DNA of 64,000 bases from Deuterostichococcus epilithicus (lineage: Eukaryota > Chlorophyta > Trebouxiophyceae > Prasiolales > Stichococcaceae). Positions 5,295-62,600 of this stretch are shown in pieces (position 1 is the stretch's first letter; every line of letters begins with the position of its first letter). The position numbers and the translations under genes are program-made. The stretch spans positions 1,860,001-1,924,000 of the forward strand of contig JAVTLE010000007.1 in assembly GCA_033439295.1 (NCBI GenBank). Direction: 5' to 3'. The notes under the pieces were generated by a model. It ran no database searches. It worked only from the letters and a program-made list of their open reading frames with translations, and was not told the DNA's origin.

Positions 5295-8195
5295 TCATGT
5301 CTCGCTGTCATCGCTGCCGTAGTCACCCAACAGCCCTGTAAGGCCGGCACCGCCGCCACTGGAGCTTGCGGGACTGCCGCCGCCTGCCTGCTCTGGCGCC
5401 ACCGCCACTTTCTTGGCTGCTGGCTCTGCTGCACTGAGGCCCGCGTCCTCTGCAGGCCGCTTGACGGGCTGCACGGAGGCATCGGCTCCTGCGACGGCGC
5501 CACTGCCCGCTCCACCGCCGCTACCATTCTGCTGCCTGCCATCAGCTGCCGCCGCAGCTGGCGCCGCCTGCTTCGGCTTGACCGCAAATCTGGGCCGTAT
5601 CGCCAGGCGCGCTGCCAGCGGCGGCTTTCTGTCTGCCGGCTTTTCTGGCGGCGCCGCCTCTGCCGCGGCCGCCGCACCCGCGCCGCCGTCCCATTGCTCG
5701 TTCCTGGTGAAGGAGGCCGCGCCGGGCGCTGCCGCCGCGACGGCCAGCGCGGCGCTGGCTGCAGACTCGTCCACCCGCTGCACCTGTCGGGATGCAGCGG
5801 CATTTGAATGAGGCATTGTCCAGCAATGCTGCCAGGACGCACGGCCATGACCCGGGAATACCATAGAGTACTGCACATTAAACTTCGATAAACCATGCCA
5901 GCAATTGTGGGCGCTGGATTGCCGCAAGCTGACCAGCAGCTTCGAGCTGGGCAGCGCTTGAACGTGCATGCGAGCCTAGCGGCAACGCCAGGATCGTGAG
6001 TTACACATATAGTACATATACCCTTCCCAGTCTGATCTCACCAACGAAATCAGCTGTGAAGCGCACCTGCGAGGCGCGCTGCTGGAAGATCTTGCGGATC
6101 ATCTCCGCATCTTCCTCCTCCATCACCTCCTCGTCCGTTTTCGCAGATCTCCGCAGCGCTGCCAGCGCCGCGTCCGTGTTGACGCTGCCATGCCGCGAAT
6201 TCAGCGCCTGCGCCGCAGAGTCGGGATCAAAAGTGAAAAGTGCTGTGCATCAAAAGCTGCTCAGTAGGATGTGGCGGCAGGCAGTGCACCAAGGAGGCCT
6301 GCCCTAGGTGCGCCGCCAACTTCTGCGTTGTTGAGCGCATTGTTGGGCGAGGTAACCCTCGAGGCCAGCCAGGGCATGGAGTGCGGCGCCGGCGGCGCCA
6401 GGAGTGCGTCTCTAAACAGCAGTGAACGCTCAACTGCACCTGCTAGCCCTGCCACGCTCGAGGGGCATAGGCCTTTCGCAAGCGGGGTTGTTGTTCACGA
6501 CTCGATTCAGAGGACCACATGCGATTTGGAGCAGCGGGCCACGCCCACACACCAAGCTGCACCCCCCACTGTGAACCCTGTTCTGAAGCACAGTCTGCCG
6601 CCAAGTCGCACCCGCAGCTCCTCGAGTGCGTCCGTGATGTCCATCTCAAACTTGGCACCATGCACATCTCAACCCGAAACCCTTCTGAAACCTACCACAC
6701 CTGCAGCTCCGGCAGCGCATCCCTGGGCGCACTCATCATGTCCACCTCCACCTCTCAGCCGAGGTAATCACAGTTCAGACCGACTGAGCCAGACTAAACC
6801 ATTTTGTCAAGATTTCTGGTGTCGTTCCAGTGCTCACCTGCAGCTCTTCCAGCGCGTCCATGATGTCCATCTCCACCTTGGAGTCGTTGGTGCGGTTCTC
6901 CAGCGCCTTCATCGCGTTGCCCCGCTCCTCATCCTCCCGCGCCGTGACCGCCTCCGCCACCGTCTGCGGCACAGGATGCGGTCCACCCAAGAGCGTCAGT
7001 GTCTCCACCTCCTGTCCTGTCCTGTCCTGGCGACGCGCCGTCAGACGGCAGCCGAGACTGAGCCGCGCCCTGTCGACGCCACCCCGGACAGACACGCCCG
7101 CCCCTGCTCCTTGACTGGCAGAGCGGAAACGCATCCATCGGCAGCACCTGTTCCGTATCTCAAGTGTCCACACCGGCGCGTGTGCAACGGGTCCCCATGG
7201 CACGCGCTCGCACAGTCCAGGCCTTGGCAGCCGGGCCGGCGCGCTGACCGCTGCACACGACAGAGACACGGCGCCTGCTGCCAACCCGTCACACGGCACA
7301 CTCAGCTCACCTTGTCCTTGTCGCGCCAGGGCTCGTAGTTGCGAGTGGCGCCTTGCTCCATGGCGTAGTCGCTGTTTTTGGGGTCCGTCTTCATGGTGAT
7401 CTCCGCGGAGCAGTTTTTGCAGTGGAAATAGAAGCGGAAGATTTTGATGCCCAGGTAGTCCTCCCCCACAACATCCTGCAGGGGTGTGGGAATCTGTAGC
7501 GGCAGGCCGCTCGCACAAGATGCAAGCACGAAAAGATGCAAGGACGAGGCGAAGCTGAGACGCGAGTGTGGACGATTGGCGTTCAGCTGTGAATGTGTGT
7601 GCAGCCACTGGGGCGCGAACCCTGATAATGCCGTCGAGCAGTTTCCTCGGTCGGGTAGCAAGCACATATGTCATGCAGGTGCGCGGCAGAGGTGGCGGCA
7701 GCCGCACCTCCATGCGCATGGTGAACTTGGTCCCCTTGTACATGTAGTTGCCGCAGGTGTTGCAGCGCACGCTCATGGCGAGCATCATGCGCACCTGCGG
7801 TGCGGATTCAGACCTTGATCAGTTACAGCAGGCAGGTGTTCGCCTGCAGCGCAGCCAGCACTCCACCATGTGGGTGGGCCTTGTGGCAGCTCGGCTCGAT
7901 GGGCCCAGCAGCTGCCGCAGCTTGCCGTCAGCTGACACACAGAAGCGCGGCGCAGCGGGGGGGGCGCAACTCACCTTCATCTGCGCATCTTTGTTGCCGC
8001 GCTGCCCGCGGGGCAGCTTGGCAGGGTCAAAGTCCGGCGGGTAGTACTGCGAGAGACGAAGAAACAGGTCAGCCAGAGTGGGGTACTGTTTGCCGGCCGC
8101 CCGACGCCGAGGGAGATGCAGTGACGTCCGAGGTCGCAGCCACGCTGAACGTAGCGCCGCAGTCTCACCTTGTTGAGCACTTTGCGCTCTCCCAT
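5295..8195 (-). CDS. YJU2: YJU2/CWC16 (CCDC94) pre-mRNA splicing factor
   Basis: Step-one splicing factor that joins the Prp19-associated spliceosome and helps the branch-site attack. The reading starts at MGERKVLNK (8169-8195), followed by exons 7975-8046 ([12 protein letters not shown]), 7708-7794 (with [14 protein letters not shown]), about 7312-7479 ([13 protein letters not shown], then [13 protein letters not shown] and EQGATRNY) and further exons near 6838-6965, 6050-6215 and 5295-5790. The two CxxC pairs (CNTC, CKNC) form the family's zinc site. The C-terminal third is an Ala/Gly-rich tail with [10 protein letters not shown] and ends in [12 protein letters not shown], as in other YJU2 proteins. 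It is divergent with SAE1. The intron at about 6216-6837 carries two degraded copies of the adjoining exon end (see repeats). Confidence 0.93.
6613..6886 (-). repeat. Exon-edge echoes in a YJU2 intron
   Basis: The YJU2 exon ending at 6838 has its last ~45 bases (6838-6886, coding [11 protein letters not shown]) repeated in degraded form downstream on the gene strand, at about 6701-6752 and 6613-6656. All three share the core that reads GAGCTGC on the gene strand at the exon end and GGACATGA or GGACATCA further in. The 6701 copy keeps an intact CTGCAG/GTGTGG-like donor. The copies sit within one intron, so they are not needed for the normal protein. Confidence 0.75.
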
Positions 8196-8823
8196 GGCTG
8201 CTAGCTTTCTGGAGAGCTGTACAGAGCCCCTTCAACTCTCTCCTGGGCAGCCCTGCGTGCGGCTGCTGTTTGTCTGCTGGGGCGTGCGTCTGGTGCAAGC
8301 CCTTGAGCTCACCCCGTCAGCGACACCACAAAGCTGACGAGTTGACAGCCCAGATTGCAAATCAGCTTGGTGGACTAGGTGGCAAGGTTTCGGAAGGTGA
8401 TGTCTCCCGCACTTGCTGGGACCTCGACGCCCGGCTGAATAGAAGGTGCTCAAACACTCAGATTTGGAACGTTTGCTGCTCTGTCTGCTGCTGCTAGAAA
8501 GCTGCAGCGGCCTAGTGGGTTCACTCGTCGCAGTGCATGCAATACACACCCTGCTGATGCGGAATAGCTCTGGCGCAATTTGCCTGCTGAAAGCTCACTC
8601 ACACACGCAAAAGAGTCTCAAAGCGGTTTTCATTGGTGTATCAGCTTGGGTTGACCTGCTGACGCTCTGTTAGTATCGTCTTGCACAATTCGATCCTTTC
8701 AAATCCTGCCAACCAAATCGGACAGCTCGTGCTATCAGCGATCCAAAAGTGCACGAGATCATCTTATCAGTGCCTGTGACGATCATCCGACCCATTTGTC
8801 GTCAGCACCAGAGCTGGTTCGTC
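8196..8823. promoter_or_regulatory. Divergent promoter region, YJU2 / SAE1
   Basis: About 630 bases between the start codons of YJU2 (-) and SAE1 (+). It must hold both 5' leaders and promoters. I see no TATA box I would trust and no coding exon. Short Thr/Leu-type open frames here have no family marks. Confidence 0.5.
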
Positions 8824-10856: not shown

Positions 10857-11300
10857 GAAGTGTAGCTCGTACCTGATCATGATACATTGCAGCAATCTGT
10901 CAATTGTATCGCATGCCGTTGAAGTGCCGTAGTCCATGCTCTGGAAATCGACAAGCGTCAAGGCTGCAGCCGCCGATTCCGCCGATTGCAAAATCAGTTC
11001 AGGGTTTACCGCGCCAGGGCAAGGAGGCACTTGCTGCAGTCGACCCACACAAACGTTGGACATCATCTTGATCCCACGTAAGCCTTCGCCTCGATTGACC
11101 TGGCGACGCCGGCGCGGCGGTGCTGGGGTCAAAGGTGTGGTTGCGGGTGATGCTATGCGACAATGTGGTTCAACCCCAAGGAGTAGTGCGGATGCCTGTC
11201 CTGCATGCGCTACTCTCTACTTGTCCGTCCATATAGCCGGAGAGGATTCTCGCATCATGCTGCAGGTCGCCGAGGGAGGAGCCCCGGAACGCCTAGCACC
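10857..11300. other. Intergenic between SAE1 and QCR8
   Basis: About 440 bases separating two genes on the same strand. It should hold the SAE1 3' end and the QCR8 promoter. I see no exon or conserved site. Confidence 0.45.
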
Positions 11301-15200: not shown

Positions 15201-17019
15201 CGCCTCCGGCGCCAGCGCCTCCAGTTCCGCTCGCAGCTTCGGGTTGTCCGGGACATCGCCCGCGAGTCCGCCGCGCAGAAACGTAGCCTGTGGCGAAGCC
15301 GACACGGCTCAGCACAGGGCTCGGGACACCCTGCTTCAACGGGACCCTTGCTCAAGCGCTCCGGATTTCAGCCGTGGCTGCCTGGCAACAAGCCCGAGCT
15401 CCTGGTCACACCATGCGTGACCTGTGACGCATACAAGCAGGATGCTCTCCACAGTCGGTGGACCCGGTCCCGGTCCCGGTCGACCTGAAGACTCCACGAT
15501 GCTCAGCGGCGCACCTGGAGGCCATTGAGGATGTCGTCGCTGAAGATGAACCAGTCGCGCCAGACGCGCAGCACGCGTAGAACGTGCCGCCGCAGCCCCT
15601 CCTGTAGATGCCACGGGTGTCTATGAAGTCAGGACATGCGAATGACTGCTCAGCGAGCGGCTTGTAGCGTCGCCTGGACGAAGAGGCATCGCAGGCTCTG
15701 GTGACATAATGCGATCGTCTCATCCAGCTACAGTTGATGCAACTCTTGTCTCCGGGGCTCGCGTCTCGGCAGCACCGCCCTTGCACCTGCGTCGTGCGGC
15801 TGTGGTTGATGCAACTCTCGTATCGAAGCTCGCATCTCGACAGCCGCCCTCGCACCTGCGCCGTGCGGCTGGGCGCGGCACGGTAGGTCTGCTGCAGCGA
15901 CTCAAAGATGGGAGGCAGCGCATCCTCCAGTCGCGCCCGGTAGCGCGAGGCGTTGCGCACTGGCGCCGTGCTGTTGTGCAGGATGTCTGACGCCAGGAAC
16001 AGGCGCGCAACCTGCAGGGTGCCACACGAGACTCGTCAGCGAGGTGGCTTGTGCAGGCAGCGGCGGGATGCGCACGGCGAGTTACTCCACACAGACTGCT
16101 GGTGAAGTGCTGAAGCAGGGTGTGTCAGCCTGGGACAGGCTGTGTGCACGGTGAGAGCCGGCCCAGGGACACAGCATGCCTTGTGCGGCCAGCAAAACGA
16201 CGAGCTGGAGTGCTCGTCGCTCCAGACATTGCCGCTTGAACATGAGTTCTGAGCAGGAGTGCCAGATGCATGATCTGCGCCAAGGTCTGCACTCCCAGGG
16301 TGCAGAGACCCTGGAAGCTCATGGCACTGGAAGGCAACGGTAGCAGACTTGTAGCTGCAGACAAGTGGGGCACCTTAGTGGGGATGGGCGTCTCGTCCAG
16401 GGTGAGCGCCTCCTGCAGAATGTCCACCACCTCGGCGGCGCAGTCGGCGTGGTCCAGCGCAAACACCATGGCGTCGCGCACGGCGGCCCGCTCCGCAGTC
16501 AGCCCCCGCAGCAGGTCCTCGAACTTGTCGCGTTGCAGGTCGCTCAGCGGCGTGTCCTTGTCCTGTGGAGAGGAGGCAGAAGTAATTTTAATAGCAGAAA
16601 CCTGTTGCTGGTGGTGCTCGAACATGTCGGGCCGCCAGTCGCTCAGCGGCACGTCCTTATCCTGCGCTAGAAACGGGTTTCAAATGGAGCGACAAAATTG
16701 CAGTGACACGAGAAATTCTGTGACACAAACAACCGTAGCAGGCATGTCCTTGTCCTGCGTCAGGAAGGAAGGGTTGCGAGGAAATCTCAGGGGCAGAACC
16801 AACTGCTGCAGTTTCGGGCGGGGGCTTATCCTAGTCTGAAGACAGGCGGCAGACCCTCTAAGTGAAGGCGCCGGCAGTTGCAGCTCATAGATGCGGTTGC
16901 CACACGCAAGCTGGTTGCGGCTCCAGCGGACTATCCCCATAGAGGACACGACGCGATTCGGCCAGGTGATATCACATGTTTGCGCCCCCAACAGCTCCCC
17001 GCGGGAAGCCACACGCCGG

Positions 17020-17070
<51 letters not shown>

Positions 17071-20000
17071 GCTGCTGCAGGCACGACTTCCATCCGCACC
17101 TTGAGCTCGCCGCCGCGCTGCGCGGCAGTCTGGTGGGAGGGGCCAATCACCAGCGTCATGGGCGGCGGAAGCCACCGCTGCCCGCCCTCCAGCATCACAA
17201 AGGGTTCCACCCGCCAGGCCCGCTGCGTGTCGCCTGCGGCAGAAGACAACGCTTGACGATGAGGCTGTGAGGCTTTGATGAAGATGGGGCCTCTGCAAAG
17301 GTGGGGGCATGCGCAGGTGCACTGCCTGATGCATGCGCTGAAGAGCGGGACCGGGGCGCAATGGCCGGAGGATGCTGCCAGAGGATGCGTCGACATCACG
17401 TGTCACGAGGTGGCAAGCACAGGGTCCCTGAGTGCAGCGGGCCCGCCGTGAAAGAGGCAAAGACGACGAGCCTTGGGCAAGGGAGTACAGGCGCCAGCGG
17501 AAGTACGCGTGCTCCGGCGACTGCAGGTTGAACATGAATGCAAACTCCGGGTTGGCGCTCTCCCGCTCCATGATGATCTGCAGGGGGCGGGCAAAAGAAT
17601 CAGCGCGCAGCACCAAGAGGCACTGGAGCAGTCTCTCGCAGGAACGAGCCCTGGCAGGCAGGCAGGCGACAGCAGGTCGAGGAGTCTACGTCCTCAGATT
17701 TTGCGTGAGTAAAGGATCCGTGTATTTTAGTTAAGCAGGCGCTCATCGACAACACGAATCGGTGGGATCAACTGTGCATGAGGATCAAAAACCTGTTCGA
17801 GGTCGGGGCCGTCGCGTAGGACGTACGCCGCCGTCTGGTCGATCACAAAGCGCTGCCGACCGTCCGCCGGCGGCCTCACCTCGATATCCGGGCCCTGCAG
17901 ACACCGGCGCTTCAGGAGCAGGCCTCTGGAAAGCCAGCTGACGGCCTCCCTGCAGCCGTTGCAAGTTGCGCCCAACAGCAAACGTGTAGGGCGGCTCACC
18001 AACGATGACCACCCGGTGCACGAGTGCCTCCCAACGCATTTTGTGAACAGGGAAGCACAGCAGGAGTGTCTGTTGGTCTGTTCGTTTGCAAGAGAGGAAG
18101 TGGTGCACCATGCCACGGTGCTCTTCAGCGCCGCGGCGCTCTGGGGCGGCGTGCGGGTCGGACCATGGCAGCGCTGCCTCCACACCTGGCGGCGGCACCG
18201 CCGCGCCAACTGAAGGCAGCCACAGCGCAGTCCAGATCAGAGCTCTTGCGGACGGTGGCGTGCCTCATTCCCGATGCACTCAGGTCAGGTCCCTGTCTGT
18301 GAGGTGCAGCCAACCTATGCCGCAGGCGAGCTGCGCAGCACTGGCCCATGAAGCGACCAGCTGCGGCCGCTTCAAGAAGGAGCCCATACACACCGCCTTG
18401 CACCGCACTTGCGCCACGCGACCAGATGGCAGCGCATTCGAGCCCGCTGTCCGTATGCACGGTCTCGTTGCGCTGCCTACTGCTGCGGGCAGGCCGCCCG
18501 AGGCCCGGCAGCGCTGCCAGCAGCGCAGATCCCACCAAAAGCACGAGTTCCAGTGGCGCCGTCCACCTTTTGCTGCTGGGGTGCCGGAAGCGGTGAACAG
18601 CGGCGCCGCTGGGAGCGCCACCGCCTTGCCCCACCCCAGCTTGAGTTCTTGCCCGTGCAGCAGGACGCCGTTCAGGTCGTCCTTCGCCTTCTGTGCCCCT
18701 CCCCGCGACTGCATTGTGCATAGGTTACATGCTCAAACCCCCGCGCCCGCAGCGGCGAATTTTCCTGCACAACCCGCCCGCTCGGTCGGCCCAACCTGCA
18801 GCTGCGACCCAACCTCGTCGCAGGAGATGGTGCAGGTGCTGGCAACCGACGCCCAGCCACGCGCATGCAGCATGTGCAGCCACTGCCACTGCTGTGCATC
18901 TTGTGTGGCGTTTTTGTATTCACTTCGTTGCCGTTCAACCGCATCACAGGTGGCAGCCCGTCACTCACCATGAACGCCACAAAGCCGCAGTTGCGGCCCC
19001 GCCGCCGCTGCTCCTCGTCGCGTGGCCACATGATCTTGACGCTCGCGACGGGGCCAAAGCGCCCAAACTCGCGCTTGAGGACCTCCTCGTCCACATCTGG
19101 CGCCAGGTTGCCCACGTATCTGCATTGCAGCAGAACCTCTCTCTCCACAGCCTTAGTTCAGTGCCAGTGGGGTGAAGCAGGGGTGTGAGACCTCGCGACG
19201 CTGCGCTGCTGCATTTACCGGCATGGTGCATCCTAAGCTGCAGCCCTGACACCGGCAAGCAGCGCTCGAAAGACGCTTCTGGCAGCCTGAGAGTGACACG
19301 AGATGCAAATGAAGCAAAGACGACATCCGGGAGGCTCGCACAGATCTGTGATGTACGATTCTTTGTACAGACAGCTGCTGCACGGGAGCATGACTCAGAT
19401 GCAAACTCGGCACAGCTTGGTCGTGTGGGGAGTGGAACTTCGACAAACATTGTTCGTGAAGCAACCCAGGATCGTGGTGCGCACAGGTTCGTAGTGTGGG
19501 GGTCGTTGTCGTCCATGGACCCCAAATAGTCGTCAACGGGCTCGTCCACAAAACCCTGCTCACGGCGCTGCCGCTGCCGCTCCTCCCGCTCCTCCTGCTC
19601 CCTGCCATGCGCAAGGTTCGGACAGTTCACTTCGAATTCTCGACCCGTGTGTGTCGCCCTTACGCCACACTCCACTGCTGTGTGCTCACGCAGCCAGAAC
19701 ATGTGCAGCATGTACGGCGATCTTGAATTGATTACACGACCCACCGCTTGAGGTTCTCCAGCATGAGGTCGATGTTGCGCGGCTTTTTGCCGCCGCCGCC
19801 GCGGCTGGACTGCGGCAGCGGGAACACAGTCTCCTGCGGCTTGGCGGGCTCTGCCTTGACGGCGGCCATTGCGGCCGCCATGCTGGGCGGCACGAAGGAC
19901 GGCACATACTTGCCGCCCGGCTTCTTGGCTGACGAGCTCGCTGCGCGGCAGTGGTTTGCAGCGTTTGAGCCGCAGGGCAGTGCGTGGACTGAATCGGTCA

Positions 20001-24100: not shown

Positions 24101-27100
24101 TGGTCAAGGCGGCCTCTGCAATCACATTCATGGTGCATGTGCCGACAGTCTTTGACCCTCCCACCTGTACATCATCGTCCCTGACCGTCCCTTGGGCTGT
24201 GTGAAGTCCGCAGCATGGCAGAGTTCCAACAGATCTGGACGGCAGCAGCTCACATGCACGTCCATCGCTGCAGGGTGGGTGTGGTGCCAGGTAGGGCGCG
24301 CCCACTTCGAGATGGTGGACTACTCGCAGGCGGCGCATGCCTTCGAACAGGCCCGCCGCCTGGAGCCGCACCGCCTTGAGGTCCGGCCCATCAAACCCTG
24401 CATCATGCGCCCACGGGCCGCTAGTTGCTTGCGGCTGCCGCTACTGCTGTGATGTCGAGCACGTCAACCATTTGTGGGCAGCTACCTTGGCCATCAGCGG
24501 CCAGTGACTCGGACACGTGTCAACTGGAGCATCGACGGAGACCTGCTGTGCGCGCCAAGCCTTTGTCGCCAAGCACGACGGCTGAGGTCAATGCAGTCCG
24601 CACGCCCCATTGGCATGGCAGTGCACAGCATGGCGTACTGCCTTGCAGGCAGTGCGACCCGTCGGCTGGGCTCTGTCACACGCGCCCTGCACCCGCGAGA
24701 ACCTCGTCGCTGAGCTCCCCTGTGGCTCCTGACATCCCGTGCCCACTCTCCGCCCCACCCTGTAGGCATGCAGGCGCGCACCGCGGTGCTGTGGCGCCTG
24801 AAGCGGGAGGCGCAGCCGGCACCTTGAAGCTTTGTTGTGCGCCCTGCAACCGAACCCTTCGTCGCTGAGCATGTGACTTGGTGCCTTGCGCAGGGCATGG
24901 AGGTGTACAGCACAGTGCTGTGGCACCTCAAACGGGAGGTGCACCTGGCGGCCCTGGCGCAGCAGGCGGTGGCGCTGGACCGCCTGTCGCCGCACGCCTG
25001 GTGCGTCATGGGCAACTGCTTCTCGCTCCACAAGGTGCGGCACTCGGCAGGCTCGCACGTGGACACTGGCTGGCCGGTGTGGCTCCTGCCGTCTGGCTCG
25101 GAGCCGTCCTGCACTGCAGCGCTACAGCACTGCAACAGCTCCGTGGCGGCAGACTGACATACGCTGGCAGATACCTTGTTCGTCCCAGCAGCCGTATGTC
25201 AAAAGTCGCTGCTCGCCGGCGGCTGACACGGGACAGGAACCCGGCATGCTGCTACATTGAGGCTCTGACAAGCGCAGCGCATCAGAGCCCTCGTCGATGC
25301 ACCCGTGACATATCTACCATGTGCCCGTCACCCGCCTGTGTGTGTGGCTGCGCAGGAGCACGAGGCCGCGCTGCGCTTCTTCCAGCGTGCGCTGCAGGTT
25401 GCGCCCACCTTCACCTATGCCTACACTCTGTGCGGCCACGAGTATGCCGCCAACGAGGACTTCGAAAAGGCGCTGACCTGCTACCAGCACGCCGTGCGGC
25501 TGGACCCTGGTCACTACAACGCATGGTGCGCGGCGCCGCTCTGCTTTCAGCCTGTGCATGCGTGACACTGCCAGCAGCTGGCACTGCCAGCGGGGGCCCC
25601 GTGGCGGATCAGCTGCCGCAGCCGCGCAGCCTTTGCAAGCTTTGTCCTGGCATTCGGGGCTGGTGTGGGGGGGCTGCCTGTGGACGCACCGCTGCAGGCG
25701 GCACAGAGCACCGCATCGCACACACCGCTCCACGCCACTGCGGCCCTCACCCTGACCAGGGGGATCACATCGATCTGTGCCTACATCACCCCCCCCCGAG
25801 CTGACAGTGATTCGCCGCCCCGACATCCCCGTGCCGCCTGGCCCCCCAGGTACGGCATCGGGCAGATCTACTTCCGGCAGGAGAAGTACCGGGAGGCGGA
25901 ATACCACTTCCGCGGCGCGGCGGACATCAACAAGCGCTCCTCCGTGCTGCACTGCTACACAGGCATGGCGCTGCACAAGCAGGGCCTGCACGCGGAGGCG
26001 CTCCAGCGGCTGCAGGTACAGAAGGCGCCCCTTGCCAGCGCCGCGCTCACGACCTGCGCCACGCCTGACCAAGCTTGAGCTGCTGGAAGGCGCCGCAGGC
26101 TTCGTGCTTTCTGGCTCGGCTGCGTGCGAGTGAAGCAGGATCGCACTGCCCTCTTTCATTTCCATGTGAAAGGCCCTGGGCTGTCTGCGGGAAATGTTGC
26201 CATGGCTGTCGGGTCGTCGGCAGCCGCCTGCTCACTGCAACGACGAACAGAAAAACATGCACTTGCCCCGTTTACCGGCAGATCGCCATCAAGGTGGACG
26301 CGCGCAACCCGCTGGCGCGCTTTGAGCGCGCTGCGGTGCTCGAGGACCAAGGCCGCCTGCAGGAGGCGCTCGCCGAGCTGCTCGCCCTCAAGGTGTGCCC
26401 TTGTTGTTTGCACCTCCGGCTAGCATGTGGCATGTGGCTCTCCTTGATGTTCTCTCTATGGCACGGGCCGCCTGCTGCCTGCCCCTCGAGGCGCTCTTGC
26501 CTTGGCGCCGGACCCACCGCACCAGTGCCCTGGGCTGGCACGTCGCCACCCCTGGGCCGATCTCGACGGCCCTGTGGGCTGAAAATGGACTTCTGCCATA
26601 CGGGTTCAGCATCTTCTCCAGGCCCTGCAGGCCTGCGAGTGCTAGCGTGCGCATCAGCTTCTGCCTGATAAAGCTCTGGACGCCACGGGTGCGGCGCGAC
26701 TTGGCTAAAGTGATTGAATGCACCATACTAGATACGAGTGAAAACTTCTGACTCCAGGAGTTGGCGCCGCGGGAGGGCAGTGTGTACTTCAAGATGGGGC
26801 GCGTGCACCGGCGCCTCAACCAGGTGAGCTGCCCACTGCGATGCACCTGCTTATATTGGAATGTCGGCAGGGCTTCTGGGCGGCCATGCCTGCCAGAGGC
26901 ATCACAACGTCATGGGCGGCGCCGCAACAGGGAACCTCGAGAAGAGCTTCTGAACCAGCCTGTTTGAAGTTTCATTTCATGTCCAATACATGCCAAGAGT
27001 CCACCCGCAGGTCGACGAGGCCATCAGCGCCTTCACCACTGCGCTGGACCTGAAGCCCTCCTCCGCCGACGCCGGCATGATCAAGTCCGCCATCGAGAAG

Positions 27101-35854: not shown

Positions 35855-36304
35855 GCTGCACGGGCCTCGTGCACGTGTGGCGGATGCCCAGGACCACTGC
35901 TATTGCAAAGTGGCCCCGCAGTAAGGGCTTTTCAAACTGACCAAGAGACAGCTGCTGCTTCAGCGGTAACTGTGAGAGTGCTGCAGTAGCGTGGTTTTGC
36001 TGTGAACTAGCAGAATCTGGGGGTGGCATCGTCGTCGGGAAGAGGGGCACAACAATAGCGGGGAGTGGAACCCACATGCCGAACAGCTTCCACAAGGGGC
36101 TTCCTTTTGCGAAAGGGGCCAAGCTGCGATGAAAGCAGAATCCGCCTGCCCAAATCAAGACAGCCACTCAGTGCATGGCTGCGCCAATTGACACACTCTC
36201 CAGCAAGCAGGTGCAAAAATCGATTTGTATGTCCTCATCAGAACGAACGAGGCTAATGAACTAGCCCGCGGCAGCGCATGTTCACACCATGCGCCGCAAC
36301 TAGA
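35855..36304. other. Intergenic, between two - strand genes
   Basis: 450 bases between the start of the DUF2358 gene and the stop of the pfkB kinase. It holds the promoter of the former and the 3' end of the latter. I see no exon. Confidence 0.45.
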
Positions 36305-43500: not shown

Positions 43501-45167
43501 TCTGGTTCTGCCCAAGCTCGCCAGGCATGCATGATGACGGCATGCTGAAACGTTGTCTGACAAGCTGCAGGCCCACAGCGGCCTACGTGTACGGCCGCTC
43601 CTGGCGCCGCACGGCGCAGGCGGCTGCACGCAGGATAGGAACCTGGCGACGCCCACCTCCAGCAGCCCGCTGATGGCGACGCGCGCCTCGAGGCTAAACC
43701 CTGTTGCGGGGCTCTCCAGCTCCGAGTGCGTGCCCAGCACAACAATGTCCAGGTCGGCCCCCGGCAGCGCCAGCCCCGTCGCCTGCGCGCGGTTGGTGTG
43801 AAGGCCTGTCTGTTGCAGGCAACCGAAGCACTACCCGCAAGGAGGCGCACAGCCATCCGTGTGGTCAGTGCAGGGCCGGCACGCAGCGGGTTCCCACCAA
43901 AGCCGATGATGCATGCCGCACCTTGAAGGCTGCGGGGTGGCGGCACATGAAGCATACATGATGCCGACCGTGAGCAGGAGGCTGCTGCTTTTCAGGGTTG
44001 GGTAGTGGAGACGAGCGGGCTACAGGTGGGTTTGCGGCTTAGCCTGGTTCACATCACACATGCCGCGCAACAAGGCTGCACTGACCTGGCTGCCAAACAG
44101 TGTGGCCGTTGACTGCGGCCAGATGCGCTGCGCTGCCGCACGGACGCCCGCCAAGCCCTGCTGCACAGCCGCGGCCTCTTTCCGTGTCGGCACAGCCTGC
44201 AAGGCCAAAAAGTCTCACTTGCTCGACGGAGGGGTTGAATCTTCAACCCAAAGCGATGACATCTCGATGACAGTTCAGACCTGCGACACACCGCTTCCGA
44301 CACCCCAGCTCTGCCGAATCAATGCTTTACCCTTGACACACTCTTGTGCCTTGTCTCATGAATTCAGAATACCTCTGAATGCGGAGGCATCACCTGTGCT
44401 GCAAAGCGGAGCAGCTCATGGTGCAGCTGCGACTTGGAGCCACCATTCTGGGCAGCGGCCGCCGCCTGCATGAGCGCCTCCCTCACAGTGGCGCTGTCGC
44501 CAGCGGCGCTGCTGCTGCTGGCTCCGCCGCCGCCGCCAGCAGGCAGAGGCTGCGCGACATCGCCTCGCGGGTGCCCACGTTGCTGAGGCGGCTGCTGCTG
44601 CCATGGCGGCTGCTGCAGATGCTGCTGCCACGGCAGCAGCGACGGCGGCTGCTGCTGCAGCGATGGCGAGTTCGCCGCCAGTCCAGAAAGCCGCCACGAG
44701 TGTGGAGGTGCGGGCCCTGGTGCCGTGTTCTGGAGGTATTCATGGGGTATTACCTCTGGGGGGCTCTGGCCCTGTGCCTGATGACGCATCCACTCTGGCG
44801 GCGCAGGCAGCGGTGGCGGCGTGATGGAGTTCTTCCGCGCATATGCTGACGCCAGGATGGCAGCTTCTGCGGCACTGCGCGGCCGGCCCTGGCTGCCTAC
44901 AAGCGTCCCGGTGGTGCCAGAGGGCGACGGGGCGGCTCTACCGGCCGACTGCTGCTGGCCAGGCGCCCTGCCGCGCCTCTGAGCTGTTTGCGAGCCGGAT
45001 TCGGCGGACCATGACGGTTTGCCAACGGGGCAGCCGGCCACAGCCTGCCGTGGGGCTGACAGCAGCTCGTCCTCGGCGAATTCGATGTTGCCGAACTCCA
45101 GCCTCGGTACGGCGCCCGGATCGAGGGACTGGCCGCTGTCACTGCCACTGCTGTGGTACCTCGCCAT
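40564..45167 (-). CDS. TRF4: Non-canonical poly(A) polymerase, TRF4/PAPD5 (TENT4) type
   Basis: Nucleotidyltransferase that adds short A tails to nuclear RNAs, marking them for the exosome. It starts at MARYHSSGSDSGQSLDPG (45167), with a Pro/Gln-rich first exon (to about 44375). The catalytic core begins AAAQRIWPQSTATLFGSQ (about 44050-44210) and ADLDIVVLGTHSELES (DxD metal site, about 43720-43790). It continues AIIKARVPIIKCYL (about 43270), ADISIGTSNGARAVAMLNRQ (third Asp) with LPLLRPVILVVKAFLREKGL (about 42945-43070), VFSGGLSSYSVAVMAIAHL (about 42590-42640), and LLAVEDPQ with DIGSGSFNIRHVKRAF (PAP-associated domain, about 42100 and 41735). The C terminus is Lys/Gly rich (PRKPGGGKFKKQRM to GKKKGINV), a likely nucleolar and RNA-binding tail. 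All three catalytic acids are present. Confidence 0.93.
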
Positions 45168-48558: not shown

Positions 48559-51500
48559 TTACGCCGCCACCGGGCTGCCGACCACGCGCTTGACAGCGGC
48601 GATGACCTGCACATGCAACAGCAGCCGTGTCAGACGAAAGCCTGGAATCCAGTTGCCTGTCGATTTTCCGGAAGCATAAACTGCATTGGGCAAGTGGCAC
48701 AGCCGCGTCGTTGTTATCCACGTGAGAAGCCTCCTGCAGTACGTCGGGTGTGGAGGAGGGGTTCCACCAGCTGGGACAACAACGAGGGAGCAAATGAATT
48801 CGCATTGGAACGATGTGGCGCACCTGCTCGGGCTGCACGATGGTGGCCGCCTCCAGCTCGTAGGCGTACGCTGTCGGCACATCCTGCGAGCTGAGCCGCA
48901 CCACCTGCGGCGACCCCCAAGCTTCCTCCGTGTCATGCCGAGGCAGTGCAGACGAATGTGAGAGAGCAGACAGGCGTGAGGGTGCATGGGGCGCCGCACC
49001 AGCCGCAGCCAACCACGCCGCACGCCGTGGTGCCAGGCAGCGGTCCAGTGAGAGACTTTCGAGTGTGATCCAACCACGTCGTTCGCTGTGTTCTGTCGGA
49101 CCTGCCGGCATCTGTTCCAGACGGCAATGTTCTCGCCTGATGGTCCAGGTCGTCGAAGCAGGACTCGTTGATGGTGGCGGACAGGGAGGCGCCGATGCCG
49201 CCAGTCTTCATGCACTCCTCCACGATGATGACGCGCTTGGTCTTCTTCACGCTGTTGGTGATAGCCTCCATGTCGAAGGGCTTCAGGCTGATCAGGTCAA
49301 TGACCTGCACGCGGCGGCGGGGGAGGAGCCGTCAACAGGCACCGTCGCTGGACTGTATGTATGCAGCCCTGACCTGGTGGGTGTAGCGATGGAGCACAGG
49401 GAGTGCAACTGCGACGCAAAGAGTGCAATGGCGATGGCTCGACCGGCCTCTACCACCGGAGGCAAGACGCAGCCGAGCGTCTACTGCTGGTCGCCCAGCG
49501 AAATTGCGCAGCCGCAGCTGATCCAGGCGTGCAGCAGGAAGGCCCCCGCAACGACAGGAGCACGGCCCGCTGCCGCAGTCCGGGCTCTGCAATCGGCGGC
49601 CAGCGCAGACCGGTCTGCTTCATGCAGCCGGGCGCAGGCGGCCCCAGCAGTGACACCAGACAGTCACCCCTGGACAGTCACCCCGGTGATGCCTGCCGGG
49701 AGCAGGCAGGCATCCCCGCCACATTGCCGCTGCCGGGGTGGGCCGCAAGAGAACAGCCCACCTCGGGGTCGTAGCCCTCCTTCTCCAGCTGGCCGACGGC
49801 CTGCATGACGACGTAGCGCATGCGGCTGTAGCACAGTATGGTGACGTCGCCGCCTGATCGGACCATCTCTGCCTTCTCCAGCGGCTGGTAGTACCCCTCC
49901 TTTGTCTCGCCTGCGCCACGGTCGAAGAGTCCAGGAGCCGTGGCCGGCAAACCGAATGGTTGTCATGCGGAATCCTTATACTTCAGGACTTCAACTGCCT
50001 GATGGACCCCTCTTTCGTCTGTCCGCAACACAGGGGCAAGCAATCGTAATAATGAGGGTCCCGCATGGCCTGAGGGTCGTGACAATTGCCAGATCCCCAG
50101 CCCTGTGGCGGCCGTAGGCCACCCTTCTGCAGGTGCAATGCGGCGCGCCATCTCGGAGCTGCTCGGCTGTAGACGAGAACGCAATGCCGGCAGCAGCGTG
50201 TGGGCTGTCCGCTCAGTGTGCGGCGCGCCGTGAGGTGATGTAGGACCGTGTCAGCCCGCGCCACGCCCTCACCTTTCACGTTGTACAGCAGCACGTGCTC
50301 GAAAAATATGATGGGGTTGTCCGACCGGATGGCCGACTTGAGCAGCGCCTTGGCATTGGCGGCTGTGGAGCAGGCCACCAGCTGCACGCCCGGGATGGAC
50401 TGGAAGTAGGACTCCAGCCGCTGGCTGTGCTCCGCGCCCAGCTGGCGGCCGACGCCGCCGGGGCCACGGATCACCATGGGCACCTGGCGCCCGCAGTTGT
50501 GTGTGCATGTCAGGGCTTGGGATTCAGATGCAGGAGGTTGGACCCCAGCTGCTTGCCGTGCTGCGCGCCTAGTTGCCGCCCCATGCCGCTGGGGTTGTGC
50601 ACCACCATGGGCGCCTGTTGCTGGCTGCAGCCGCGTCAGCTTGATTTTACAGCTCACGAGCCTAGCGAGTGGCATACACGATTGCGTTGAAGACTTGCAT
50701 ACGCAAGACAATTTGGCCTCGGCTGGCATCAGCTTGCCGGCCAGCACTGAGTCGCGGCAGGGGCGGCAGCCAATTTGCCGGGCTCTTGCAGTATGACTGC
50801 CGCTGGCTGAGCTGCGCAATCAAGCTGCAGCCAAAACGCCCAGGCAGTGCACAGCATCGGGCCGACAGCGTTCTGGCCTGTGCACCCTGGGCAAATGCAC
50901 AGGTGGTGCATCATCCCTCACGCTTGCCTGCCTTCCCATCGAGGTGTTCGTTTCCATTGGAATTGAAGGGCAAATTGAAGACTCGTTCAATTTTACGTGC
51001 ATCAACATTGGGATTGAAACATATTCCGTTGTTAAACGGGCAAAACTTTGATGCAGCCTTCCAGCATCCCACCTTATACTGGCCGCCGGAGGTGTAGTGC
51101 AGCATGCCGGCGTTGTTGGAGATCTGGTTGTACGCCAGCAGCAAGAAGCCCATGTTCATGCCCTCCACGATCGGCCGCAGCCCCGTCATCGCCGCGCCGA
51201 TGCCCATGCCCATGAAGCCATTCTCTGCACGACCGAAGGCTCAGTGCATCAGTGCGGGTTCTGATGCCGCATTGCTGCCGCAGGTTGCTGCAGGTGTGCT
51301 GGTCGTGGATGTGCAGGACGCACGAAGCTAGCGCACGACGAGAAATCAGTCGTGGAAACAGCCTCCACTATCACAAGTAGTGCACTCTCACCGCAGATGG
51401 GGGTGTCAAGCAGCCGCATCTCGCCATACTTTTTGTACAGGTCGTATGTGACCTTGTATGACCCGCCATAGTGGCCCACGTCCTCACCTGCGGTTTCAGA

Positions 51501-56682: not shown

Positions 56683-59600
56683 ATGCTGCAGCGGAAATCA
56701 TTCGTGAAGAAGACTCGGAAGGGTCAAGTCCTCAAGGCATGCGCGCACGGCTGCATCATGTCCAGGCATGCTGACATCCATTCTTGGTCCCGGTACATTC
56801 TCGGACGCTCGGGACTCACTATCAAACGTTTTTGCAGGTTGTTCGGGAGCATTACCTCCGGGATGACATCTCCAGCGGCTCGCCGCTCGACCCAGAGTGC
56901 GACGCGGAGTCGGCCAAGCTGGCCCCGGACGCCAAGCAATACCTGGTCGTCGACACCAACGTCGTCCTGCAGCAGGTGCTGGCCAGCGCCGCTGTGCACC
57001 AGCTGCCGCCATCAAGTGGGGGAGTCATGCTGCGCAGTCGTGCCGGTGCCAATTTCATCTGCCCATGCAGTGGAAATGTGTTGCTGCGGGCTAGTCCGTC
57101 CAGTCGGCCAGCCTGTCGGGCTGCAGATGGACCTGCTGGAGAACGCCGCCCTGGAGGACGTCATCGTGCTGTCGGTGGTGCTGGAGGAGGTGAAGCACCG
57201 CAACGCGAGCGTGTACCAGCGCCTGCGCAAGCTGTGCGCGGACATGGGCCGCCGCTTCTTCGTGTTCGCCAACGAGAACCACAGGTGGGCGCCGGTGCCG
57301 AGCAACGAGCTTGCCGGCGATCTTGAGCGGCCTGCGAGGTGCGCGCCGCGCAGCCCAGGTGTGCCGAATCCATCGCTACGGACCTCACAGCCAGCCCTTC
57401 AGAGGTGAATCTCACACCCTGGCGCCTCACACCCATGTTGCGCTATGTTGTGGCGCACTGCAGGTTGACGGTTCATCAGTGCGGAGGCGGGGCAGCAGGC
57501 CTCACACCCATTCTTGCAGCACCACTTCTGCACTGGCCTCATATTGTGTGGCGCACTCCGCAGGGAGACGTTCATCAAGGCGGAGGCGGGCGAGTCGCCG
57601 AACGACCGCAACGACCGTGCCATCCGGGTGGCGGCAGCCTGGTATGCGCAGCGCATCCCGGGCATGCCCATCGTCATGCTGTCCAACGATGCGGACAACC
57701 GGCGCAAGGCGGCGGAGCTCGGCGTGACGGCCATGAGCGTGCAGGTGAGGGGCTGCTGCTTCACCAGGCCGAACTGCACTTGGCATGCAAAACATCGCCC
57801 TGATGCCCCAGGCCCGATCAGGAGGGACATGCAGGAGAGCAGGACGCAGCGGCTGCGGCTGCCTGGCAGAGCTGTTGGAGGTTCGCCGTGCAACGCTGCC
57901 GATCTGCTGCGCAGACGGAGTTTCTGAGGGACAAAATTCGTGGGCACTCACTGCTTCCTCACAGCTCTGATCTCACATTGCCAGTCTCGTAGTGTCTGAT
58001 CTCGCAGTGCATCTGCCGCAGGCATACGTGCAGCAGCGGCCGGACGGCAACCAGCTGATGGACTTGGTGGCACAATCGGCGGCGGCAGAAGCAGCGGAAG
58101 CAGCAGAGGAACGCAGCGGCGGCGACGGCGGCGGCGGCGCCTCCTCTGGCCGTCCTGGCAAGCGCGCCCGCATCTACGCCGACCACCGGCCCATGTCGGA
58201 GGTCACTGCCGGCATCAAGGCTGGGCGCTTCCACCAGGTGCCGGCCGCACGTAAACTGCACGAAGAATAGCCATGCTCATCCTTCTGACGCAATGCGCAG
58301 AGGCGGGTGTCTGCCCGCTGGAGCTGTAGGAAGCCCCAGCGCCCTTCTGGCGCCAGAAAGGCGCGCATCGAGTATTGCACTCCAGAGCCGAGACGAATCC
58401 GGCAGACGCGGCGGAGGCGCATAAGGGGGCTCCTGCGAGTTGCTCCTGGTCAGCCGCTGCTCGCAGCACACCAAGCGCATGAAGGTGTGGTGCAGGGCGC
58501 GCTGCGCGTCAACCGGTACAACACCTACGAGGGCTGGGTGGCGTCGGAGAGCGTTGGCCAGGACATCTTGGTCGGCAGCCGCGTCGACATGAACCGCGCC
58601 TTTGACGGCGACGCCGTCGCAGTGGAGCTGCTGCCAGAGGACCAGTGGCGCTCACCCGCAGGTTCATTTGCTTCACTTTTCATTTAAATGTTTTGAGGGC
58701 GTCGTACTGGCTGAAGCTCTCAGCGTTGCTGCCCTTGCGGCCGGCAGCTGCTCCCTCTGCGCTGTGTGTGCAGTGGTCAGAGCGGGCTGCTCCGTTAGCA
58801 GGGATGAGACCAGCTCATGCGGTGCCTGCATCATGTGCAGCGCCGGAAAGCGCACCAGTCGGAATGCAGCTACTGCCGGCCAAGTCGGAACCTAGGCAAG
58901 AATGATGAACCCAGTGCTTCCTGCCGCGCAGAGCGGCTGCCGGCCAAGGGCAAGGACGGTGCAGACGCCGCAAAGGGGGACGAATTAGAGGAGGCGGGCG
59001 AGGAGAGCGGCCACATCGCAGAGGTGCAGAGTGCTCCTCGTGTTCCGTTTCCTCGAATGGCTGTCCATGCTCAAATGTGTGCCAGTGCCTGCAGCTGTGA
59101 GTGGACAGTCGCCCTGCTGATGCACGGCAGGATCACCCAGCGCAGCAGGGAACTTGTACATCTGAGCACGACCTCGTGGCTGGTTCAGCAGTCACCTCAT
59201 ATGCTGCAGAGGCAAGTCGTGAAAGTGCTCCACCGCGCCGTCATGCTGCAAGCCTGATCATGCTGCTGGCATGCCGAACAGGTGCTGCCAGAGGAGGGTG
59301 CGCAGTCGGTAGCCAGCGGCTCAGCCAAGCGGCCGACGGGGCGGGTCGTGGGAATCATCCGCCGCAACTGGCGCACCCGCGGCTATGCCGGCAGCATCCA
59401 GCCCGGCAAGCGCGGCGGCTTTTCCAACAGCGTGGCGCACGTGCTGTTCGTGCCTGTGGAGCGCAAGTTCCCGATGATCCGCCTGCAGACGCGGCAGGTG
59501 CGGGATCATTCTTGAGAATGCGGGACCACTAGTGAGAATGCCGCTCCCGCCTGTGCTCAGACGATGAGCTGTTGACCTGATGCCAAGGGTCGGAGGATGC

Positions 59601-62600
59601 GCTGTGAGTGGTTCGTGTCTCAACCGGGCAGATGCCATTTTGCTGCCCGCTGGCCTTGGCTGCTTCTAATCGCCTTTCACAGGTATGGCTGCGAAAAATG
59701 CAGATACCCTCTGCGAACTCCATGTGAAACCCAAAACCCTTGCTAAGCAGGGCCGCCTCTGGCTAGGTTGTGCTTCGCCATTGCCGGGATGCGGCATCGC
59801 CCACTGAGAGACAAGCGCATGTTGGTGGCGGTGGGCGCCTGCCGAAGCCCTCCTTGCTCACCATGTCCACGTGACGCTGTTGAGATGGGTTTTGGCGCTG
59901 AAGCGTCCTCTGCTCGGCTGCAGTATGACACGCTGAAGGACAAGCGCATCGTGGTGGCGGTGGACGCCTGGGAGACGGACTCCATGTACCCCACCGGGCA
60001 CTACACCCGCACCCTGGGCAAAATCGGCGACCGGGAGACGGAGACAGAGGTGAGGACTGGTCCTTTTCAGAGCCTGCTGTGCTGGTCGTTTGAGGCTGCG
60101 TTCCAGCAGGCGGGCAGTAAACCCGCACCCTAGCGACCGGATACGAGATCCTCCTGTTCCTCCTGTTGCAATTTCTGCCTTTGTGGACATTTAGCGAGCA
60201 CTACACCTTCCTGCATCCTGGGCGAAGTTTGCGACCGGGAGACGGATACCGAGGCGGGCGCTCTGGTTGGAGATCCTATGTTGAAAAGTTTGTGTATGTG
60301 CCTTTCTGCTCGTGTCGAGCTGCGTTCCGGGCGGAAGGCAGCAGGTTTTACCACACACCAAGTCCAATTTTGAGGCTTGCCCCGGTGCAGGTGCTGCTCC
60401 TGGAGCACGACATCAACACCAGCCCCTTCACGCCGGCGGTGCACGCCTGCGTGCCGCCGCTGCCATGGTCCGTCTCCCAGGCCGCCATCGACGAGCCCAA
60501 CCGGTGTGCACATCTCTTCGAAGCCGGCGCTCGCACGCGCGTCCCGCATTCCGATCCCGAGGTCCCCTTCAGGAGTCATGGCTGCATCGTCAACCACGAG
60601 GTGTTCCCTGTGCACAAGCATGCACAGGAATGCTTGCCCACGACTGTACTGCGCGGCCCGCCCTGGGGCGCCTGTGCATGTGCAGCGTCGTCAACTCTTG
60701 ATCCTGTCCACCTGCTCCTGATCATGCCCTGCTGCACCCCGCAGGGAGGACCTGCGGCACCTGTGCGTGTGCAGCGTGGACCCGCCCGGCTGCAAGGACA
60801 TCGACGACGCGCTGCACGTGCGGCGCCTGCCCAACGGCAACCGGGAGGTGGGCGTCCACATCGCCGACGTCACCAACTTCCTGCATCCGGGGACCGCCAT
60901 GGACGCGGAGGCCGCCTCCCGGTGCGCGCTCTTTTGTGGATTCCCCCCATGCGGACCTGCCCCTGCACAGGCCGTCCCGCAGCACGACAGCCTCAGCACG
61001 GCCCTGCCTTGCAGCGCCGTTGCCACAATCCTGGACTTCGCCATGCGTCCCAGCTTGCATGAGGAGGCACTCACTGGAGTGATGGCGCTCGCCTGCTGCA
61101 CAGTGCGCCTGCCGATGCACCAGCACTTGGCGTGCTTGGCACGCGTGCTGCAGAGGCGCGTCAGCATGCCGCTCGCCCCTCTGTGCGCAGCACCGCCTGC
61201 TGTGCCGTGTCCGCCTGCAGGGCCACAACCTGCCAGCTGGCCTGCAGATCCGAGGCAGCCGTTGGTCACCGTACAACAGACACACGCCGGCGGGCCTATC
61301 AGCATGCCGACCTCACATGTTGTCTCTCCTGCCTTGCTGCGTGCACAGGGGCACCACCTGCTACCTGGTGCAGAAGCGCATCGACATGCTGCCCAAGCCG
61401 CTGACGGAGGACATCTGCAGCCTGCGCTCCGGGGTGGAGCGCCTCGCCTTTTCGGTGCTGTGGGAGATGACGGACGCCGCCGAAATCGTGGCCGTCAGGT
61501 GGGGCCCCTCTGGAAAATGTGGACATTAGGGTAGCCGCTTGATTGTGGCAGATGACTGATGCCGCTGACATCGTGGCCGTCAGGTACGGCCCCTCTGGAA
61601 CAGGTTCAAATTGGGATTGCCGCTTGAAACCGAGGCAGATGGCTGTCGCCGCCGACATCATGGCGTAGAGTGCATTTCATGGGATTTGAGGCGTTTTCGC
61701 CGACACCGAGAGCTGCTTTGAGTGAGGAGATGACGGATGACGTCGGGCTCGTGGCCCTCAGGTGCCGCCGCTGGATGTGGTAGCCGCCAACCGCAACGCC
61801 GGATTGTCTATGCTGAACCCCCTCCTTTGCCAGGCGCATGTGGTTCGCACGATGGGTCTCAGCGCGATCATGATGCGAGCCATTGCCGAGCAAGTCCGCA
61901 GGAGTGCGGGCCGCCGTCGACAAAACTGTGTAGGCAGACTTATGCGGCAGCACTGTGCCGCAGCACGGCTGAGGTTCCCTGCTTTGGCTGACAGATTCAC
62001 GAAGAGCGTCATCCGCAGCCGGGCGGCGCTGACCTACGCAGAGGCGCAGACGCGCATTGACGACAGTCGCCTGCACGACGAGGTCTGCGCCTTTGCACTG
62101 CCCAGCTCGTTTCCACGTGGACCGCGTTTGGCAAGAGCAGGGAAAGGAGCGACAGCTGTCCATCCGACATCGGGAATGCCATCGGAACGGAAGGAGAAGG
62201 AGCGGCAAGAGCAGAACATCAGATGCTGCAGAACACATCGCCGCCACCTGCGCAAGCTGTGCACAGCAGTCAGCACAGCAAGCGGGCCTTCATTGCCGTG
62301 CCTGCACGATGGCATGGTTGCCGCTCGGGCGGCGCAGACCCAGCCTTCCTCTCAGAACCTTGGTCGCCAACGGCACGTGCACAAGCAGCGCAGGGTATCG
62401 CCATCGGTTTTGAATTTCTGGTGTAGGAAAGTTTCCCTTGGAAACGAGAGGTTTCATGTCCGCAGGTGTCCGAGGGGCTGCGGGCGCTCAATGCAGTAGC
62501 ACGCGTGCTGCGCAAGCGGCGACAGGAGCAGGGCGCGCTCAGCCTGGCCAGCCCGGAAGTGCGCTTCGAGATCGACACCGAGACGCACGACCCGCTCGAC

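Follow-up and report, generated by a model that had tools for sequence, protein, structure and literature searches.

Same-strand copies of exon edges in the adjoining introns of the green alga Deuterostichococcus epilithicus

Exon-Edge Copies in the Window

We examined a stretch of 64,000 nucleotides from Deuterostichococcus epilithicus (contig JAVTLE010000007.1, positions 1,860,001 to 1,924,000; hereafter the window), which holds 14 gene models, including YJU2, U2SURP, CDC27, PDH E1 beta and DIS3, and whose introns carry decayed same-strand copies, here called echoes, of the edges of their own neighboring exons. Together with two 100-kb blocks from contigs C1 and C3 and 24 short loci (30 WD40 loci, 6 of which were dropped for overlap with others), the window makes up the 339 kb of DNA examined, or 0.7% of the 46.8-Mb, 21-contig genome. 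Across this DNA, a same-strand copy of an adjoining exon edge is present in 49 of 705 introns (7%; score of at least 18). The echoes are real and widespread in the sampled DNA; they reflect the growth of introns rather than their gain, and they show no good sign of function. Gene names in the window other than DIS3 follow an earlier sequence-only reading of this DNA.

Gene models were built without existing annotation by a self-trained gene hidden Markov model (HMM), whose first training round started from 3,183 nt of exon matched in the 30 WD40 loci, so that these loci are not fully independent of training. The HMM converged on 47 genes with 537 introns in 264 kb, and on 71 genes with 705 introns with the 24 loci added. 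The median modeled intron is 226 nt long, and the splice consensus has donors like CAG/GTGCG and acceptors like YGCAG/G (the slash marks the junction). The HMM sometimes predicts an echo or part of one as an exon, as in YJU2 and in genes 5 and 13 of the C3 block, or as tiny exons in U2SURP and CDC27, which lowers the echo counts.

The sequence-only reading had placed exon-edge copies in six named genes. We find them in YJU2, U2SURP (twice), CDC27, PDH E1 beta and DIS3; in the gene at 31.3-33.4 kb, the best exon-intron match is 19 nt long and scores 15, which is background, as inverted controls reach that score 7 times in 537 introns. The sources and echoes in the window are as follows.

YJU2, 6835-6881 (-): source, 3' end of exon 6838-6963 and donor start (repeat family D9 and gene model)
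YJU2, 6609-6655 (-): donor-side echo, further down the gene, 85% identical across 47 nt (family D9)
YJU2, about 6698-6753 (-): second, weaker echo, score 18, called by the HMM as an extra 51-nt exon at 6701-6751 (family D7)
U2SURP, 15792-15871 (-): source, last 16 nt of exon 15856-16011, donor and intron start
U2SURP, 15720-15802 (-): donor-side echo, a plain tandem copy at offset 71 with clear intron-side homology
U2SURP, 16514-16565 (-): source, acceptor and start of exon 16374-16562 (family D8)
U2SURP, 16613-16664 (-): acceptor-side echo, offset 99, CAG retained, intron flank without visible similarity; 9 nt called as exon by the HMM
CDC27, 24894-24949 (+): source, start of exon 24894-25076 (family D6)
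CDC27, 24765-24820 (+): acceptor-side echo, offset 129, AG lost; 12 nt called as exon by the HMM
PDH E1 beta, 50402-50486 (-): source, acceptor CAG and first 82 nt of exon 50273-50483 (family D4)
PDH E1 beta, 50533-50617 (-): acceptor-side echo, offset 131, CAG retained, intron flank without visible similarity
DIS3, 57444-57491 (+): acceptor-side echo of 57542-57590 (exon from 57564), offset 99, intron-side homology present
DIS3, 59782-59841 (+): acceptor-side echo of 59911-59970 (exon 59924-60049), offset 129 (family D5)
DIS3, 60195-60254 (+): donor-side echo of 59995-60050, offset 204, with a weaker second block at 60111-60131, score 17 (family D10)
DIS3, 60662-60688 (+): acceptor-side echo of 60751-60777 (exon 60745-60921), offset 89 (family D15)
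DIS3, 61459-61577 (+): source, end of exon 61349-61498, donor and intron start (families D2 and D3)
DIS3, 61544-61664 (+): first tandem echo, unit of about 85 bp, donor CAG/GTACGG intact, with a further block at 61634-61664
DIS3, 61726-61772 (+): further donor-side echo, offset 263 (family D2)

YJU2 proteins presumably lack the segment encoded by the predicted extra exon at 6701-6751. In DIS3, which was said to hold copies six times, we count eight exon-intron blocks scoring at least 17 (seven of them at least 18) in five introns. Across 99-100% of its length, the partial DIS3 model (806 residues) shares 66-69% identity with proteins of trebouxiophyte green algae (Micractinium, Myrmecia, Elliptochloris, Chlorella vulgaris, Coccomyxa viridis and Trebouxia), which very probably places its source in the same group. 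The comparisons that follow use the best 55 of 120 listed homologs. Where exon and echo differ in residue, over seven DIS3 blocks, the exon residue is on average present in 0.42-0.78 of these homologs, compared with 0.01-0.11 for the echo residue; in DIS3, the gene so compared, copying thus ran from exon to intron. None of these homologs carries an inserted segment at the echo-bearing junctions 59498-59923, 60050-60390 and 61499-61994, and one carries an insertion at 60504-60744. All 55 are gapped at the predicted donor at 57338, which is therefore misplaced, the upstream exon model running too far.

The splice consensus is strongly biased in the sampled DNA (donors favor GTG, with C at +4 and G at +5, and acceptors end in GCAG), and third codon positions are ~85% GC. 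The overall GC content is 61-63%, unlike the 53% of Coccomyxa subellipsoidea C-169 (PMC3446292). Elsewhere in the window, the HMM joins three apparent genes at 34082-45167, probably through a merge error by the predictor; two of them would encode a TRF4-like nucleotidyltransferase and a pfkB-like kinase, and the remaining one another protein. The U2SURP model has five single N bases inside or beside coding exons (13569, 14080, 14083, 14572 and 14687), which may be ambiguous base calls or masked letters, and an intronic AGC trinucleotide array of ~20 units at 17022-17080.

Enrichment over Chance

Exon-edge echoes exist beyond the window, far above chance, in all three contiguous stretches and in the separate loci. 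The simplest and cleanest evidence of this excess is an ungapped test, in which 25 introns repeat, within their final 400 nt, the first 36 nt of the downstream exon (at least 23 of 36 matches), vs. 0.3 for mismatched pairs, and the last 36 nt of the upstream exon recur in the following intron in 15 introns, again vs. 0.3.

The same excess appears prior to any annotation: in a self-comparison at a score of at least 22, local direct repeats outnumber inverted ones by 10 vs. 1 in the window, 25 vs. 5 in the C1 block and 41 vs. 1 in the C3 block. When exon edges were aligned with their own introns (450 of 537 introns, those with an exon edge shorter than 30 nt being left out), 17 introns scored at least 25, vs. 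1.8 for mismatched pairs (mean of 40 draws) and 2 for reverse complements; at a score of at least 22, the corresponding numbers are 30, 6.5 and 7. The contrast is weak at a score of at least 18 (70 vs. 38.2 mismatched and 46 reverse-complemented), because gaps are cheap in that alignment.

Stiffer gap costs yield 40 direct exon-intron matches scoring at least 18 in the 537 introns; low-complexity alignments were dropped from this count, from that in the WD40 loci and from the comparisons with simulated duplications. The inverted control gives 13 (8 labeled DI and 5 labeled IU), all with arms that overlap or lie at most 25 nt apart, and inverted exon-intron matches with separated arms number 0 in 537 introns, in line with the same orientation that the sequence-only reading described. 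Close-armed inverted matches were removed by a filter that was not applied to direct matches; the ungapped test above and a map of 40-nt windows provide controls that have no need for it. With the inverted-arm filter applied, the 24 WD40 loci (168 introns) hold 9 direct matches and 0 inverted ones.

Junction echoes scoring at least 17 occur in 25 of 71 genes and are somewhat clustered (p = 0.03). Echo-bearing introns number one per 6.4 kb in the window and one per 6.9 kb across all DNA examined at a score of at least 18, and one per 7.1 kb and 7.9 kb, respectively, at a score of at least 20; the density of one event per 5 kb put forward earlier was too high. The statement that copies always lie at a junction was likewise too strong, as the same catalogue has 16 intron-intron rows and 12 within-exon rows.

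Position, Size, and Intron Length

The echoes are anchored at splice junctions, and on the acceptor side they are set back by a narrow distance. In the ungapped test, 23 of 25 introns have acceptor-side offsets of 80-149 nt upstream of the true acceptor. In the 40-nt window map, 37 of the 51 matches, which overlap and are not independent, start -10 to +20 from the acceptor at offsets of 80-139; the remainder include 8 intron-intron matches and 3 at offsets of 210-229, and two mismatched sets gave 0. Donor-side blocks (24 with a score of at least 17) are scattered over offsets of 66-344. The branch-point-like motif CTGA peaks 20-29 nt before acceptors, and the acceptor-side echoes with offsets of 60-150 lie upstream of this peak, stopping 26 nt (in one case) or at least 34 nt short of the acceptor, with an overall gap of 26-91 nt.

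The 28 acceptor-side blocks in that offset range are 0.67-0.89 identical to their exon (mean 0.78), and their recognizable exon part measures 18-82 nt. An identity of 75-85%, as first estimated, describes 16 of the 28, and the estimated unit length of up to ~200 bases is not reached by the recognizable part; the differing degrees of decay that had been described among local junction duplications are supported. Compared with echo-free introns of the same gene, those that carry a single acceptor-side echo are 72 ± 20 nt longer (n = 16; introns with more than one event, or with fewer than three echo-free introns alongside, were left out). Recognizable echo amounts to 1.39% of intron bases, so that introns are not largely exon debris, as had been suggested, and 0.91% of exon bases have an intronic echo at an identity of at least 80%.

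Tandem repeats also occur wholly within introns, where they reach 91-100% identity and suggest recent short tandem duplication. Examples 92-98% identical at offsets of 42-119 lie in genes 1 and 5 of the C1 block (L031-L040) and in intron 8 of gene 7 of the C3 block (L041-L050). Of the 12 within-exon rows, in which some repeats are counted twice, 10 keep the reading frame, which is what selection acting on a general process of duplication would be expected to leave. Similarities between exons at offsets of ~194-534 nt (introns 8 and 9 of gene 12 in the C3 block, and the WD40 loci) look like repeated coding domains and stand outside the echo counts.

Decay and Splice Sites

Mismatch rates at the three codon positions are nearly flat (0.212/0.201/0.243 and 0.193/0.185/0.197), also in echoes that retain AG or GT, and echo offsets are random modulo 3, independent of the reading frame. 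The echoes therefore look like debris, and the data fit the decay of a noncoding copy under little or no coding constraint. Echoes whose flank overlaps the other exon were left out of the flank, splice-partner and intron-side tests. Among the others, the splice dinucleotide is kept in 14 of 25 acceptor-side echoes (AG) and 8 of 17 donor-side echoes (GT), near the ~0.62 that we estimate for neutral decay at ~21% divergence. A partner splice site near the far end of the echo is found in 3 of 25 acceptor-side cases, vs. 8% at random, and in 2 of 17 donor-side cases, vs. 14% at random. Hypermutation was considered and rejected, since no substitution class is dominant; A>G and T>C have the highest per-base rates on the acceptor side. 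The proposal that fresh echoes act as alternative or poison exons finds no good evidence in codon positions, frame, partner sites or AG/GT survival.

Origin of the Echoes

We propose, with about evenly balanced confidence, that the echoes are what remains of local same-strand duplications which crossed a splice junction or bordered on one. The inner copy would land in the intron, which grows, and the outer copy would leave the exon and its splice site whole, so that such a duplication would be tolerated. On the acceptor side, the survivors would be those that leave intact the stretch from the used branch point to the AG, placing the AG of the echo ~80-149 nt before the true acceptor. The echo would then decay free of coding constraint while selection maintains the exon, and the exon half would remain visible longest. 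In its full form, this account has all echoes beginning as junction-spanning tandem duplications and the intron half of most of them being lost faster than by plain neutral decay; both of these parts we infer.

Homology across the junction bears directly on this proposal. Of the 42 echoes that could be tested, 7 show clear continuity on the intron side at a score of at least 10, the 99th percentile for mismatched flanks: 4 of 25 on the acceptor side and 3 of 17 on the donor side (DIS3 61459-61664, U2SURP 15720-15871, L026 intron 3, C3 gene 13 introns 12 and 20, C1 gene 1 intron 5 and DIS3 57444-57590). The mean acceptor-side flank score is 7.24 vs. 6.12 for mismatched flanks, which equals that of simulated duplicates at ~30% divergence per copy. 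Plain tandem duplications were simulated at divergences of 0.05-0.40 with several indel rates, and those at 25-30% divergence reproduce the share of alignments that run at least 12 nt into the intron (0.41 vs. 0.39 observed). On the donor side, exon identity correlates with flank score (0.48, p = 0.05, n = 17). An observed flank score of 11.5 in one comparison with simulations includes echoes whose flank overlaps the upstream exon, and the flank values given here come from other comparisons.

A series of observations weighs against this proposal. On the acceptor side, homology mostly stops at the splice-site core: in the 27 junction-reaching echoes, identity is 0.79 over the first five exon bases and 0.80 at the CAG, then falls to 0.53 at -6 to -4 (in part splice consensus), 0.33 at -10 to -7, 0.37 at -15 to -11 and 0.27 at -25 to -16. 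Because homology ends there, plain junction-spanning tandem duplication appears to fail for most acceptor-side echoes. Simulated plain duplications at the observed exon identity of 0.81 align ~47 intron bases, vs. 11.7 ± 3.7 observed, and simulations that match the intron share fall short in identity (0.72-0.74). On the acceptor side, flank score shows no correlation with exon identity (Spearman -0.05, n = 25). Among the 25 acceptor-side blocks tested, none that is at least 25 nt long exceeds 0.90 exon identity, a level that intron-intron repeats do surpass, and young events are therefore missing. Base changes from exon to echo are balanced (182 losses vs. 174 gains of GC), with no tilt toward the lower GC of introns. 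Intron length does not separate insertion of a whole unit from insertion of exon sequence only, the noisy excess being -33 ± 18 nt after subtraction of the whole unit and 28 ± 19 nt after subtraction of the exon copy (n = 16). Finally, echoes contain 6 stops, vs. 12.4 (5-95% range 7-18) in a simple neutral simulation, and 0.256 synonymous codon changes, vs. 0.183 (0.148-0.215). This hints mildly at constraint, or at synonymous substitution on the exon side, and we give it little weight because base bias was not part of the simulation and synonymous substitutions in the exon would have the same effect.

No single simulated model fits, and plain tandem duplication is rejected as the sole source. 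By our interpolation, the data can be fitted by a mixture in which plain tandem cases make up about 10-38%, the share varying with the statistic used. As to intron gain, the other half of what the sequence-only reading suggested for AG/GT tandem duplication, its signature (an in-register repeat of the two ends, with the intron start resembling that of the downstream exon or the intron end that of the upstream exon, at least 20 of 30 matches, shift of at most 3 nt) is found in 0 of 583 introns, so that growth stands and general gain does not. The nearest approach is in gene 11 of the C3 block, where in intron 10 (135 nt) the copies cross both ends at offset 119, 16 nt out of register, and in intron 1 (116 nt, offset 96) only 20 nt are left without the repeat unit; these may be imprecise gains or model errors. 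When genes 11 and 13 of the C3 block were tried as paralogous empty sites, they gave matches only to their own neighborhood.

A sharp border at the splice core is what one would expect if only the exon edge and the core (CAG or GTG) were copied into the adjacent intron, from pre-mRNA protected at exon-defining sites or through local template switching primed at the core, as such copying may be pictured. Homology does end at the core in most echoes, including several of the best preserved, and simulations of this process come nearer to the observed exon identity and intron-side identity than those of plain tandem duplication; on the other hand, 39% of acceptor-side alignments enter the intron by at least 12 nt, vs. 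4-6% simulated, and the simulation predicts exon blocks of 56-60 nt rather than 44. Copying of this kind also leaves the 26-91 nt zone between echo and acceptor unaccounted for, and we know of no process that copies precisely up to the splice core. The border, moreover, falls where functional constraint on the real copy ends; a tandem origin explains this without coincidence, and it would favor duplication with the unconstrained half lost, whether through faster decay or through selection against a second working acceptor. We regard exon-limited copying as possible yet doubtful, and give slightly less credence still to its general form, in which a DNA- or RNA-level process that reads splice sites repeatedly deposits core-cut exon edges ~100 nt from the acceptor and so slowly lengthens introns. 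It is unlikely, in our view, that the echoes are old tandem duplications whose exon half has been refreshed from the constrained exon by short-range gene conversion or slippage while the intron half drifted: this predicts the border at the core, the flat codon positions and the lost flanks beside visible echoes, at the price of 30-80 nt conversion that persists long after the flanks have diverged.

Function, as alternative or poison exons, decoy acceptors or in-frame cassette exons, could be read from the kept AG or GT sites, which outscore most intronic decoys (84th and 96th percentile) and are at or above the expectation for a decayed copy (3.78 vs. 3.48 and 5.16 vs. 3.96), from the reduced stops and raised synonymous changes, and from the YJU2, C3 gene 5 and C3 gene 13 copies, open enough for the HMM to call exons. 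Against it stand the near-flat codon positions, the frame-independent offsets, near-neutral AG/GT survival, a far-end partner site no commoner than chance, and four DIS3 echo junctions without insertion in the homologs bar one homolog at one, and we consider it improbable. Reverse-transcribed mRNA pieces or introner-like elements are very improbable: exon-limited homology could hint at processed RNA, whereas the sequence beside the echo is no more similar than the null to the exon edge that splicing would bring into that position (6.16 vs. a null of 6.44, n = 25; 6.47 vs. 6.27, n = 17), and the flanks and spacers of acceptor-side echoes (score of at least 18, offset 60-230) form no repeat family in the DNA examined, where they gave 14 nonself matches (E at most 0.02), of which 8 fell within the same locus or one that overlaps it. 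We give hardly any weight to chance similarity, a coding-repeat artifact or assembly error; the 31.3-33.4 kb case does sit at background, whereas the controls are near zero and copies that are 65-95% identical would be unlike collapsed or doubled reads.

Relation to Known Systems

The lengthening and turnover of introns seem to be less understood than their gain or loss. The echoes offer a countable footprint of such change: ~7% of the introns examined retain a copy of a neighboring exon edge, with a narrow set-back and a sharp splice-core border on the acceptor side. A neutral route of intron growth thereby becomes testable by comparison of strains, and the decoy acceptors ~100 nt upstream amount to a natural experiment on how the spliceosome passes over such sites. 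They are also a warning that gene finders may predict such copies as exons. Intron gain by tandem duplication is reportedly the subject of studies by Hellsten (2011) and by Gao and Lynch (2009).

Duplication across splice junctions, tandem exon duplication and AGGT-based intron gain are already described (PMC3443670, PMC2891723, PMC9013439, PMC12343006). Among the papers listed by searches with narrow terms, none reports exon-edge copies that are plentiful and closely set back from the acceptor, which is weak evidence of novelty. Introns are known to arise by tandem genomic duplication of an exon segment that bears AGGT (PMC3443670, PMC4974935). That process shares with the echoes a short, local, same-strand duplication that includes exon sequence and splice sites; there, however, the intron lies between the copies and its ends repeat each other, whereas here preexisting introns grow. 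A study of novel intron positions in Drosophila reports seven intron births, identified by comparative genomics and attributed to tandem duplication with intron sliding (PMC2891723). Those cases resemble ours in tandem duplication at proto-splice sites and in the loss of flank similarity in older examples, and differ in being births, whereas here many copies of existing junctions are set back by ~100 nt.

Tandem and mutually exclusive exons likewise place exon-like sequence in introns (PMC9013439, PMC12343006). Exonize sorts such matches into partial, inter-boundary and intronic ones and also recognizes degenerate exons, and in its 20 genomes the genes with events of these kinds outnumber those with full-exon events (PMC12343006). 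Tandem exon duplication would copy a whole exon with both splice sites, whereas the recognizable copy here is an exon edge. The exon bases with an intronic copy are quoted as 0.08% in fly, 0.06% in worm and ~2% in human, whose introns are longer (PMC9013439), by a method that differs from the one behind our 0.91%. With introners (PMC9860276), the echoes share a genome-wide change of introns, and they differ in that each echo resembles its own neighboring exon rather than a family shared across the DNA examined.

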